A DNA stretch of 64,000 nucleotides from Flavobacteriia bacterium (GTDB taxonomy: Bacteria; Bacteroidota; Bacteroidia; Flavobacteriales_D; Crocinitomicaceae): NCBI GenBank assembly GCA_947463445.1, contig CANHRS010000003.1:1-64000 (forward strand), given 5' to 3'. The notes below the pieces were generated by a model. That model saw nothing but the letters and a program-made list of their open reading frames with translations. It was not told the origin of the DNA and searched no databases. The position numbers and the translations under genes were made by a program. Positions 9,212 to 52,956 of this stretch are shown piece by piece. Positions within the stretch are counted from its first letter, which is position 1. Each line of letters opens with the position of its first letter.

Positions 9212-9239
9212 AATGTATAACTCATAGTTCATAATTCAA
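9212..9239 (+). repeat. Heptameric short tandem array (7-nt period)
   Basis: AATGTAT|AACTCAT|AGTTCAT|AATTCAA directly before the GTG start at 9243. Confidence 0.6.
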
Positions 9240-22809: not shown

Positions 22810-22837
22810 GAGTGACGAGTTACGAGCGACGAGTTAA
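22810..22837 (+). repeat. Heptameric tandem array (4 x 7 nt)
   Basis: GAGTGAC|GAGTTAC|GAGCGAC|GAGTTAA. Confidence 0.85.
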
Positions 22838-34406: not shown

Positions 34407-34416
34407 CTATTTTTAA

Positions 34417-34534
34417 CACAAAGCGAACCCAATTTTAGTGTTTTTTTGTCACAAAGAGTATGCAATTTTTCGATTTTTTATACACAAAGCGAACCCAATT
34501 TTAGTTTTTTTTTGTCATAAAGCGAACCCAATAT
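34417..34534. repeat. Tandem array of four 33-bp units (CAYAAAG-N6-CAATTTT plus T-tract)
   Basis: Unit starts at 34417, 34450, 34483 and 34516, spaced exactly 33 nt; N6 words CGAACC, AGTATG, CGAACC, CGAACC; last unit degenerates. Confidence 0.95.
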
Positions 34535-35938: not shown

Positions 35939-35979
35939 AAAATTAAGACAAAAGACAATTAGACAATAGAAGAAAGACT
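35939..35979 (-). repeat. Approximately heptameric array immediately upstream of radA
   Basis: Minus strand GTCTTTC|TTCTATT|GTCTAATT|GTCTTTT|GTCTTAA. Confidence 0.7.
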
Positions 35980-49108: not shown

Positions 49109-49620
49109 TAGAAATAATAAAACATAGTATCCGATTTGTGTTGTTCTTAATAGCACAAGCTTTTATTTTTAATCAATTGGAAATAGGATTAGGTATTCAA
49201 TTAATGGTATACCCATTATATATTTTCTTATTACCATTAGAAATAAATGTTTTTCTACTAATGTTACTTTCATTTGGATTAGGCTTTGGGATTGATTTAT
49301 TTTCAAATACCTATGGTCTACATGCATCTTCAGCACTTGTAATTGCATATGGAAGGCCGTATCTTATTAAATTATTTGAACCTAGAGATGGTTTTGATCC
49401 AGGAATTGAGTTAACAATTTATTCCATGGGTTATGCTTGGTTTAGCTATGTGTTTGGCGCATTTTTACTAGCACACACTATGTGGTTTTTCCTTATTGAA
49501 CAATTCAAATGGAGTGAATTTTGGTATGTAGTATTAAAAACGGCATTAGGTGTCCCACTTTCTTTGATTCTTTGTGTATTACTTCAATTTTTATTCTTCA
49601 AAAAGCCTGTTAAACGATGA
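49105..49620 (+). CDS. mreD: Rod shape-determining protein MreD
   Basis: Small polytopic membrane protein overlapping mreC and pbp2 by 4 nt each. Confidence 0.88.
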   Translation: MIEIIKHSIRFVLFLIAQAFIFNQLEIGLGIQLMVYPLYIFLLPLEINVFLLMLLSFGLGFGIDLFSNTYGLHASSALVIAYGRPYLIKLFEPRDGFDPGIELTIYSMGYAWFSYVFGAFLLAHTMWFFLIEQFKWSEFWYVVLKTALGVPLSLILCVLLQFLFFKKPVKR

Positions 49621-51470
49621 ATACGGACGCACGGAGATATGTAATCATTGTATTTTTTCTATTAGTTGGTTCTATTTATACAATCCGTTTGTTTTATATG
49701 CAAGTGATTGATGATAGTTGGACACTAAGAGCGCAAGAAATTGCTGAAAAAAGACAACAAATAACACCACCTAGAGGAGTATTTTTTGACAGAAGAGGAA
49801 AAAAAATAGTAGCAAATAAAACTTACTTTAATCTCATGATGTGTGAGGCTAAAATGAAGGAAAAGTTTGATACGAATGCATTTGCTAAATTAATAGGATG
49901 GACTCCTATGAAAGTGAAAAGTCGCTTTTGGGAAATAAAATTAGGGGAAGGAAAATACAAAAATCCACATACAGGTAAAACAACATCCAATTACCAAAAA
50001 ATTAGATCCTATCCATTTGTAAAAGAAATGTCGATGGAAGAAATGGCAAACATTGCTCCATATCTTCAAAATTTCCCTGGATTTTACGAAGAAATAACAA
50101 GTATGCGAAGTTACCCGTACGCAAATGCTGCAAATATTCTTGGTTATTTATCTGAAGTAAACGGAGAAGAAGTAAAAGAAGATCACTTTTATCGTGCAGG
50201 TGACAATATTGGTCGTGCAGGTCTAGAACGCTTTTATGAAAAAGAATTACGGGGTGTGAAAGGAATACACTATATCGTAACTTCTGCTTTAAATAATGCT
50301 ATTGAACCTTATGCAAATGGTAAATATGATACAATTGCAAAACAGGGACCCGCACTTCATTTAGGTGTAGATATTGTCTTACAAGCATATGGTGAGAAAC
50401 TAATGAAAAATAAACGTGGATGTATCGTTGCAATCGAACCAAGCTCTGGAGAAGTATTAGCCTTAGTATCTGCTCCAACATTTGACCCAAATTTATTTGT
50501 TGGAAAAAGAAGTATTTCAAAAAATTATTCGAAATTAATAACAGATCCATCAAAACCCCTATACCCACGACCATTATCTGCTGAATATCCACCAGGGTCA
50601 ACATTTAAACTTATACAGGCACTAACTGCATTACAAGAAGGTGTTATTAAACCAAGTACTGGTTTCCCATGTACTAAAAGTATGGTAGGATGTCACAATC
50701 ATCCACATGCACGTGACGTTGCCGAAGCTGTACAATATTCTTGTAATCCCTATTTTTATTACACCGTAAAGAAAATTATCCAACAAGGTAAGCGTAAAAA
50801 AGTGACGCAAGATGCACCGATTGGTTTAGCTAAATGGACCAAATACATGAAGAGTTTTGGTTTCGGTGTGAAATTAGAAACAGATATTACTGGAATTAGA
50901 CCAGGATTAATTCCGGATCCAGCCTATTACGATAAATGGTATGGGCATAACGCATGGGCATTTAGTACGATACGCTCCAACTCCATTGGACAAGGAGAAG
51001 TAAAAGCTACTCCATTACAATTAGCAAACTTAGCAGCCATTTTAGCAAATAGAGGTTGGTTTATCACACCACATTTTGTTAAATCTATTGGAAGTCAAGG
51101 ACCATTGCCTATATATCGCAAGAAACACTATACAATGATTCATCGGGAACATTTTGATCCGGTGATTGAAGGTATGCGTAAAGTAGTCAATGAAAAAGGT
51201 GGTACAGGATCCCAAGCAAGAATTAAGGATATTATCGTTTGTGGTAAAACGGGAACTGTACAAAATCCACAAGGAAAGGACCACTCCGTGTTTATTGCAT
51301 TTGCACCAATGTATCAACCTAAAATCGCCATTGCGGTATTTATTGAAAATGCAGGTTTTGGAGGGACTTGGGCTGCTCCAATTGCCAACTTAATGATGGA
51401 AAAATATTTAAAGAAAAAAATTACCGATAAAGAAAAAGAAGAACATATTTTGGAATCGGATTTAGATTAA
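49617..51470 (+). CDS. mrdA: Penicillin-binding protein 2
   Basis: PRGVFFDRRGKKIVANKTYFNL, EYPPGSTFKLIQALTALQEG (SxxK), VCGKTGTVQNPQGKDHSVFIAFAP (KTG). Confidence 0.96.
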   Translation: MNTDARRYVIIVFFLLVGSIYTIRLFYMQVIDDSWTLRAQEIAEKRQQITPPRGVFFDRRGKKIVANKTYFNLMMCEAKMKEKFDTNAFAKLIGWTPMKVKSRFWEIKLGEGKYKNPHTGKTTSNYQKIRSYPFVKEMSMEEMANIAPYLQNFPGFYEEITSMRSYPYANAANILGYLSEVNGEEVKEDHFYRAGDNIGRAGLERFYEKELRGVKGIHYIVTSALNNAIEPYANGKYDTIAKQGPALHLGVDIVLQAYGEKLMKNKRGCIVAIEPSSGEVLALVSAPTFDPNLFVGKRSISKNYSKLITDPSKPLYPRPLSAEYPPGSTFKLIQALTALQEGVIKPSTGFPCTKSMVGCHNHPHARDVAEAVQYSCNPYFYYTVKKIIQQGKRKKVTQDAPIGLAKWTKYMKSFGFGVKLETDITGIRPGLIPDPAYYDKWYGHNAWAFSTIRSNSIGQGEVKATPLQLANLAAILANRGWFITPHFVKSIGSQGPLPIYRKKHYTMIHREHFDPVIEGMRKVVNEKGGTGSQARIKDIIVCGKTGTVQNPQGKDHSVFIAFAPMYQPKIAIAVFIENAGFGGTWAAPIANLMMEKYLKKKITDKEKEEHILESDLD

Positions 51471-51476
51471 ATAATA

Positions 51477-51556
51477 GAATTAAGACCTAAGAATTAAGAC
51501 CTAAGACAAAATAATATATAGTCTAACGTCTGATGTCTGATGTCTAATATCTAGAC
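51477..51556. repeat. Two heptameric arrays in inverted orientation flanking a 13-nt AT spacer, between pbp2 and rodA
   Basis: GAATTAA|GACCTAA|GAATTAA|GACCTAA|GAC - AAAATAATATATA - GTCTAAC|GTCTGAT|GTCTGAT|GTCTAAT|ATCTAGAC. Confidence 0.92.
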
Positions 51557-51558
51557 AA

Positions 51559-52956
51559 ATGAAAAGAGACGAATCACTTTTAGGAAATATTGATTGGGGG
51601 TTATTTACAGTATTCCTAGTAATGGTATTTATGGGTGTAGCGAATGTTTATTCTGCTGCCTTTAATCCTAAACACCCTGAATTATTTGATTTTTCTCAGA
51701 AATATGGTAAACAAATTATGTGGGTTGGAATCTCCCTATTTTTAGGACTCCTTGTATTCTTAATTGATGCTAGTATCTATCGAAAATTTGCAATACCTAT
51801 CTATCTTTTTTGTCTAGTATTATTAGTAATCGTACTGTTTATGCCTAGTGTAAATGGTGCACACGCATGGCTAGGAATTGGATCGCTTGGTATTCAACCG
51901 GCAGAATTTGCAAAAATAGGAACTGCCATAGCACTAGCAAGTTATGTCAATAGTATCAATGTAAAACAACAAAATGTAAACACGGTTATCATTGCAAATA
52001 TCATATTATTATTGCCAATGATTTTGATATTATTACAGCCAGATGCTGGTACTTTTGTGGTATTTACTGGGTTTTTGTTTGTAATGTATCGGGAAGGTAT
52101 AACCTATGATCCTATTGTATTACATTTGGTAAACTTGATACCTGGTGTACGTTTCAAAAGTACGTGGGTAGGATCTCACTTTATTCCTATCTTTTTCGTA
52201 GTCGTGTTTTTATCAATCACAACGCTTTTAATGAGTAATAATACCATTCATTTCTTTTTAATTCCAGGAATTGATATTCCTGGGTTTTTTGGTGTAATTG
52301 GTGCTTTATTCTTTATGGGACTAGCAACGTATGTAATTCTGAGATTCTTTGCATCTAAACGCGAACGAAATCGAATTACCATGATTGTAATTATTGGTTT
52401 TTTTCTTTGTTCTTTAATTTCCTCCATTGTAAATTTTGGTTTTCAAGGCTTAAAAAAACACCAAAAAGACCGTATTGAACTATTCTTGGGTTTACGCGAA
52501 GATCCAGATGGGGAAGATTATAATCGTAACCGCGCAATGGCTGCAGTTGGGTCTGGAGGTTTTTTTGGAAAAGGCTATGGTAATGCGAGTGTAGCAAGTG
52601 TGGAATCGAATCACGTTCCGGAATCCGAAACAGATTTTATCTTTTGTCCTTTAGCAGAAGAATGGGGATTTTTCGGAAGTTTTACACTGATTTGTCTATT
52701 TATGTTCATGCTTTTCCGTATAGTACAAATTGCTGAACGACAAAAATCGCGTTTTAATCGCGTGTATGCCTACTGTGTTGCTATGATATTGTTTTATCAC
52801 TTCGCTGTAAACATAGGAATGGATATCGGTTTTGCACCTGTAATAGGTATACCTTTACCTTTCTTTAGTTATGGAGGTTCTTCGATGATGTCCTTTAGCG
52901 TAATGATGTTTGTCTTGTTGAAACTAGACAGTCAACGGGGGGATGTGTTAGGGTAA
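51559..52956 (+). CDS. rodA: Rod shape-determining protein RodA (SEDS family)
   Basis: NGAHAWLGIGSLGIQPAEFAKIG, GFAPVIGIPLPFFSYGGSSMM. Confidence 0.96.
   Translation: MKRDESLLGNIDWGLFTVFLVMVFMGVANVYSAAFNPKHPELFDFSQKYGKQIMWVGISLFLGLLVFLIDASIYRKFAIPIYLFCLVLLVIVLFMPSVNGAHAWLGIGSLGIQPAEFAKIGTAIALASYVNSINVKQQNVNTVIIANIILLLPMILILLQPDAGTFVVFTGFLFVMYREGITYDPIVLHLVNLIPGVRFKSTWVGSHFIPIFFVVVFLSITTLLMSNNTIHFFLIPGIDIPGFFGVIGALFFMGLATYVILRFFASKRERNRITMIVIIGFFLCSLISSIVNFGFQGLKKHQKDRIELFLGLREDPDGEDYNRNRAMAAVGSGGFFGKGYGNASVASVESNHVPESETDFIFCPLAEEWGFFGSFTLICLFMFMLFRIVQIAERQKSRFNRVYAYCVAMILFYHFAVNIGMDIGFAPVIGIPLPFFSYGGSSMMSFSVMMFVLLKLDSQRGDVLG

Follow-up and report, generated by a model that had tools for sequence, protein, structure and literature searches.

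The inverted heptanucleotide array between pbp2 and rodA was interpreted as a gene-less, arms-only copy of a family of hairpin elements associated with the gene of the 23S rRNA-intervening sequence protein (IVP, PF05635), and as a mainly selfish or neutral insertion; a probability of about 0.66 was assigned to this reading. The array consists of two opposed arms of 7-nt repeats, and arrays of the same kind are dispersed through the genome and flank its IVP genes. Among relatives, arms-only and empty states were found at the same gene junctions, and arms had gained or lost whole heptads. The window is the whole stretch of 64,000 nt that was analysed; it belongs to a 2.56-Mb draft genome.

Structure of the pbp2-rodA array

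The sequence-only reading of the window had described two inverted 7-nt arrays between pbp2 and rodA. Both were recovered, each with five units, on either side of a 13-nt loop (Table 1). The 7-nt period stood, but the units proposed for the left arm, GAATTAA and GACCTAA, did not, as the repeats are better framed as AGAC(NNN) on the left and GTCT(NNN) on the right. In this frame, the left arm reads AGAATTA AGACCTA AGAATTA AGACCTA AGAC, a perfect 14-nt period in the TRF output, and the right arm reads GTCTAAC GTCTGAT GTCTGAT GTCTAAT ATCT. The array produced the top lag-7 autocorrelation within the window. As had been stated earlier, the spacer is the sole long gap in the mreCD-pbp2-rodA run (88 nt versus 4-nt overlaps at the mreC/mreD/pbp2 junctions), and the coordinates confirmed that the array stops 2 nt before the rodA ATG, with the sequence CTAGAC ending at 51556 and the ATG starting at 51559.

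RNA folding, which had been put forward as a check, returned a hairpin of -15.7 kcal/mol (z -2.6 to -2.8), equalled by 1-3 of 200 dinucleotide shuffles, and stem-forming terminal inverted repeats are present. The pbp2-rodA hairpin lacks the features of an intrinsic terminator: it is A/T-rich and interrupted, and the rodA ATG is not preceded by a T run. An Rfam search of the array returned a sub-threshold U7 match alone (E 0.19), and assignment to a known RNA family was rejected for want of a match above threshold.

Table 1. Positions of repeat arrays and genes in the window, and arms of the four IVP loci of the same genome
Feature	Position	Strand	Remark
pbp2 (mrdA) ORF	49617..51470	+	upstream of element; name from the sequence-only reading, fits the sequence and the mreBCD context
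pbp2-rodA spacer, 88 nt	51471..51558	.	nearly filled by element; from ORF positions
Left arm, five heptads, core AGAC (AGAA in two units)	51476..51507	+	
Loop, 13 nt, A/T, AAAATAATATATA	51508..51520	.	
Right arm, five heptads, core GTCT (ATCT in last unit)	51521..51552	+	
rodA ORF	51559..52956	+	downstream of element
Second AGAC-type array in the window	35941..35978	.	next to two genes of opposite direction
33-nt tandem repeat, about 3.7 copies, TTTTTATCACAAAGCGAACCCAATTTTAGTGTT	34410..34532		gap between two leftward ORFs
GAGTGAC/GAGTTAC heptad array	22810..22836	.	gene junction; same flavour as arms of IVP element L195 (same genome)
TTCATAA-type heptad array	9215..9238	.	precedes a gene; flavour shared with the IVP arms of L212 (genome G008)
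IVP locus L193, TAG/CTA arms, clearly inverted			apparent sdhB-sdhA spacer
IVP locus L194, AGAC/GTCT arms, clearly inverted			between fadB and fadA
IVP locus L195, GTGACGR/GTCACTY arms, clearly inverted			
IVP locus L196, 8-nt period, inverted, ATGTAACA/GTACATTG			between scoA and scoB

Heptad arrays in the genome, the order and the phylum

Periodicity was surveyed in 864 kb of the genome and in the stretches around listed matches. Sites with at least 24 of 35 matches at lag 7 numbered 17 in the 864 kb and 0 in a Markov shuffle, a positive outcome for the genome-wide search that had been proposed. When lags 4 to 14 were compared with lag 7, the nearest was lag 14 (10 sites), with 6 sites each at lags 9 and 12. 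The pattern of three consecutive GTCTNNN units (GTCTNNNGTCTNNNGTCT) had 55 matches in the genome and its reversed control had none. Further array flavours in the genome were GTCACTC/GAGTGAC, TTCATAA and TTAGNNN.

Of 13 congeners, 11 had the GTCT pattern. When permuted 4-mer cores were counted as chains, three units gave too much noise and only four were informative; in the order, 37 of 249 genomes carried four-copy GTCT arrays, and in the phylum 42 of 395 did. TCTGNNN heptads, the reversed control, were abundant in several families of the phylum (f24, f35 and f33), often where the GTCT pattern was rare. Because of this abundance in other families, the 7-nt period may be general and the core lineage-specific.

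IVP genes between repeat arms

One pair of arrays about 400 nt apart encloses a 116-aa ORF that matched PF05635 with an E-value of 2e-33, and whose relatives of solved structure are 2gsc and 2rld. The genome contains four PF05635 genes and all four lie between short-period repeat arms, which are clearly inverted in at least three cases (Table 1; the operon names sdh, fad and sco are a reading of the neighbouring proteins). In congeners, nearly all IVP genes likewise lie between such arrays, and the arm flavour tracked the orthologue, with TAG at sdh, AGATT at suf, AGAC at fad, and ATTTGAA or ATGTAACA at sco.

PF05635 was detected in 193 of 247 sampled Bacteroidota genomes, with up to 16 copies each, and most of the approximately 120 IVP genes examined across the phylum were flanked by short-period arms. 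The genomes are mostly MAGs with genes called as ORFs, and the IVP loci were taken from the top of score lists and, through shared ancestry, are not phylogenetically independent. Mean flank complementarity was 15.6 for 52 IVPs, compared with 9.6 for 490 genes of the genome and 9.5 for 237 genes of the rodA loci; the Mann-Whitney p of 6e-19 against all control genes applies to best-scoring IVP loci of shared ancestry. Against 132 genes flanked on either side by long spacers, the difference was smaller (15.6 versus 10.7, p=2e-10). Relative to the control level, the flanks of 32 of the 52 IVPs lay beyond 95% and those of 22 beyond 99%. A strong period of 7 was seen in 33% of IVPs and 3% of controls, and one of 8 in 17% and 1%, respectively.

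Forty further IVPs of the order, at loci chosen by the GTCT count of the genome, mostly had the same arms by eye, and 30 IVPs from across the phylum scored 16.5 versus 10.3 (p=9e-4, with only ten control genes). When joined and folded, IVP arms had a median z of -2.03 (n=94), compared with -0.57 for control flanks (n=120). A few IVPs (L233, L234, L240, L264 and L288) had direct rather than inverted arrays. For the AGATTNN flavour, a match between IVP arms and dispersed arrays across congeners was weakly supported.

In a distant family, GTCT heptads adjoin an IVP match that contains a TGA stop (G300:C7:119148-119583). In-frame stops were also seen in several other IVP genes (G040, G046, G060, G153, G191 and G030), and would fit a continuing decay of copies to the arms-only state.

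States of the fadB-fadA junction and co-occurrence of arrays with IVP

At the fadB-fadA junction, an IVP gene with arms was found in 20 genomes, family-wide. Arms without the gene occupied the junction in G176 (83 nt), in G668 (109 nt, of the AGAC/GTCT flavour) and probably in G087 (60 nt); the junction was bare in G009 (6 nt), G010 (6 nt) and G075 (12 nt), and the IVP was frameshifted in G008. In G006, two consecutive right arms of different GTCT subtypes lie downstream of the IVP ORF (L202), as if elements had been nested or fused. In two other genera (L313 in G129 and L321 in G678), the spacer is filled by a G+C-richer palindromic repeat, CTTCCCCCTTCAAAGGGGGACAGAGGGGGATG and similar. In G009, an assembly that is 76% complete, no IVP was detected and the GTCT pattern had five matches; this is apparently the genome of L034, which also lacks the rodA array.

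Across the order, 36 of the 37 genomes with four-copy GTCT arrays had an IVP, as did 101 of the 212 genomes without arrays (p=8e-10, tallied by hand from two tables), an association for which genome size and ancestry account in part. For genomes of at least 3 Mb, arrays were present in 31 of 80 IVP-positive and 1 of 12 IVP-negative genomes (p=0.03). One genome (G145) has GTCT arrays though it is IVP-negative.

The pbp2-rodA junction in relatives

The RodA relatives of the window are Crocinitomicaceae and Flavobacteriales MAGs, many of them apparently lake-derived. An array occupies the exact pbp2-rodA position in eight genomes, that of the window and those of seven relatives; in the seven, the spacers measure 74-103 nt. 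Seven of the eight arrays folded with z between -2.4 and -6.5, and the eighth (L036) with -0.96. Variation in unit number, a comparison that the sequence-only reading had called for, was found between species: the right arm has six units rather than five in L032 and L033, and the spacer of 95 nt versus 88 nt in the window corresponds to exactly one extra heptad. The flanks closest to those of the window were in L031 (99% over the last 150 nt of pbp2 and 95% over the first 150 nt of rodA), where the array is of a different subtype, TTCTTTTGTCTTTTAGTCTTT. Horizontal replacement of the entire rodA region is unlikely to lie behind this switch, L031 having the closest immediate flanks of all.

In the close relative L034 the spacer is 0 nt, the TAG of pbp2 being directly followed by the ATG of rodA, and L037 has a 7-nt spacer and no array. 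In more distant relatives and outgroups, pbp2 and rodA mostly overlap or almost touch and the array is absent. The spacer states of L031-L034 and L037, beside near-constant flanks, indicate that the array at this site is gained, lost, lengthened and rewritten as the neighbouring sequence stays almost constant. The GAATTAA units of the window are probably decayed AGAC cores, because two relatives read AGACTTA/AGACCTA there.

No IVP ORF lies in the 88-nt spacer of the window or in the same spacer of its relatives. Since none of the genomes compared had an IVP gene at this site, descent of the rodA copy from an IVP-bearing copy would follow only by analogy with fadB-fadA. Arm subtypes at rodA and at the fad IVP did not match genome by genome.

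Orientation and pairing of the arms

Within gaps, the left gene was bordered by the AGAC arm and the right gene by the GTCT arm, independent of gene direction, in 44 of 47 cases (21 of 22 in the genome and 23 of 25 in congeners, where the loci had partly been picked for having two arms). The neighbouring genes were mainly co-directional, and convergent and divergent pairs also occurred.

The two arms had been said to pair through their cores while the bases between often do not, and the 3-nt spacers indeed paired at chance level. Across 98 spacer pairs, drawn from 29 hairpins with two arms in the window genome and in its relatives, the paired fraction was 0.350, compared with 0.344 after shuffling (p=0.42); pairing of the four core bases in these 29 hairpins is a consequence of how they were selected. 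Since the spacer bases pair at chance level, the arms are not exact inverted duplicates of each other, each arm instead retaining its core at a 7-nt pitch with variable spacers; a continuous duplex formed by inverted duplication was rejected for AGAC/GTCT arms.

Alternative explanations

The arrays might be plain heptanucleotide microsatellites, similar to STRR repeats, made by polymerase slippage that prefers 7 nt in tolerant spacers, unconnected with any gene. Several flavours of degenerate 7-nt array do exist, the rodA site changed in length by one heptad, and heptanucleotide repeats are described as outnumbering every other class of long simple repeat in most genomes surveyed (PMC4679880). 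Slippage alone, however, gives neither inverted arms nor the fixed orientation, and it accounts neither for the combination of conserved core and free spacer in each of the two arms nor for the enrichment around IVP genes, which makes this explanation rather improbable. An order of events in which the arrays came first, as spacer hairpins made by the host and preferred by IVP genes as insertion sites, would turn the arms-only copies into vacant targets. The occurrence of both arms-only and IVP-bearing states at fadB-fadA and the arrays in some IVP-free genomes fit such an order, but fully empty junctions without arms exist too, and the fad, sdh and suf IVP orthologues retain their own flavours (AGAC, TAG and AGATT) across genera, as expected if the arms belong to the element. 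This order of events was considered unlikely.

A hairpin specific to rodA, acting on translation or mRNA stability and selected for the control of cell shape, would agree with the end of the array 2 nt before the ATG and with the fact that most close relatives retain a hairpin although its sequence has turned over. It was judged very improbable: the same arrays occupy dozens of unrelated spacers, L034, L037 and the outgroups lack the array, and Rfam returned no match above threshold. An element specific to rodA was rejected owing to the genome-wide dispersal of the 55 matches to the GTCTNNN pattern. Control of rodA as the reason for the existence of the array is both unsupported and unnecessary, because arrays occur in dozens of unrelated spacers and every gene orientation and the rodA copy is missing in a close relative; a regulatory effect on rodA is nevertheless plausible.

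Proposed mechanism and implications

In the preferred reading, that of an arms-only copy of an IVP-associated element, a complete element would comprise a 7-nt-repeat arm, an IVP gene (PF05635, encoding a four-helix bundle) and an inverted 7-nt-repeat arm, and would be placed after one stop codon and ahead of the following start codon. The arms would lengthen, shorten and be rewritten in 7-nt steps via slippage or conversion, with a selected 4-nt core retained on both; selection of the core is suggested because the cores pair whereas the spacers pair at chance only. The core may be recognised at a 7-nt pitch, perhaps by IVP or within an imperfect RNA hairpin, rather than through selection for a continuous duplex. 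The element is putatively mobile, and any part played by the IVP protein is likewise putative.

The rodA copy would be transcribed within the operon. Where the empty site has adjacent stop and start codons, it appears to put a hairpin plus an A/T-rich leader ahead of rodA, and because of this replacement translation of rodA would be uncoupled from that of pbp2 and initiated independently. The insertion is best seen as tolerated, mainly selfish or neutral, and not as a dedicated regulator of rodA.

A wider proposal, held tentatively and possible rather than probable, is that of a phylum-wide class of IVS-like elements resident in mRNA, in which IVP would recognise a core at 7-nt pitch on inverted arms and spread or maintain these arms, and many protein-less copies, that before rodA among them, would rewrite the spacers of operons and uncouple adjacent genes. 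If this were true, recognition of heptad arms would be a cellular function for PF05635. To our knowledge, PF05635 (four helix bundle/S23p) has no known function, and we know of no explanation for the 7-nt intergenic repeats of Bacteroidota. The two would merge into one question, that of whether IVP binds, copies or processes the arms. Arrays beside important genes (rodA, sdh, fad and suf) are probably remnants of elements before they are regulators. A search of the open-access literature, which takes in few subscription journals, retrieved no description of short tandem arrays on either side of IVP genes; this outcome is not proof of novelty.

Comparison with known systems

REP/BIME and MITE sequences are short, dispersed intergenic palindromes in which non-coding copies exist beside a protein-bearing form. 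The Bacteroidota elements are likewise short dispersed intergenic palindromes with non-coding and protein-bearing forms, and their presence or absence at orthologous sites, a trait of MITE and REP sequences, was observed at both rodA and fadB-fadA. They differ in having heptad-core arms in place of a fixed palindrome, and no target-site duplication was obvious when filled and empty rodA and fadB-fadA junctions were compared by eye.

TAACTGA heptamer repeats occur in intergenic regions of Beggiatoaceae, cyanobacteria and five Bacteroidetes, as described in the available text of PMC4679880. As in the present arrays, these are 7-nt direct repeats in intergenic DNA, often immediately before start codons. 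They are, however, one exact heptamer in almost only direct orientation, whereas the pbp2-rodA arms are inverted and have another core; neither an inverted partner arm nor an IVP gene is noted in that part of the source.

The parallel with cyanobacterial heptanucleotide repeats that had been drawn from the window holds, as the heptanucleotide hairpins of that group are a real analogue. In the P6b region of the Nostoc tRNA-Leu intron, a stem is built of degenerate heptanucleotides, TDNGATT in Class I and NNTGAGT in Class II (PMC4476775, available text). The stem has two arms of degenerate 7-nt units in variable number, one motif class can substitute for another at the same place, and most single-base variation in Class II falls at unpaired positions, all of which are likenesses to the Bacteroidota arms. 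Unlike P6b, which belongs to a group I intron, the array described here lies in a protein-gene spacer and has an AGAC/GTCT core, and the same text mentions no IVP gene, in contrast to the Bacteroidota element family.

The IVS elements of rRNA have inverted terminal repeats around an S23p ORF, have been called selfish and are excised by RNase III (PMC4990558). In diversity-generating retroelements, a structural relative of IVP, Avd, works together with a reverse transcriptase (PMC10053308). As in the 23S rRNA IVS, inverted terminal repeats form a stem around a PF05635 ORF in the sister elements of the rodA copy (e.g. L194), and the distribution is sporadic. Unlike the IVS, the Bacteroidota elements lie in the spacers of protein operons and not in 23S rRNA helices, their arms are built of repeated 7-8-nt units where the IVS has a single 28-bp stem, and many copies, including that at pbp2-rodA, are without the ORF. 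The nearest known relatives are the rRNA IVS elements and the heptamer stems of Nostoc trnL, and the best reading of the family would be an IVS-like element that resides in operon spacers rather than in 23S rRNA.
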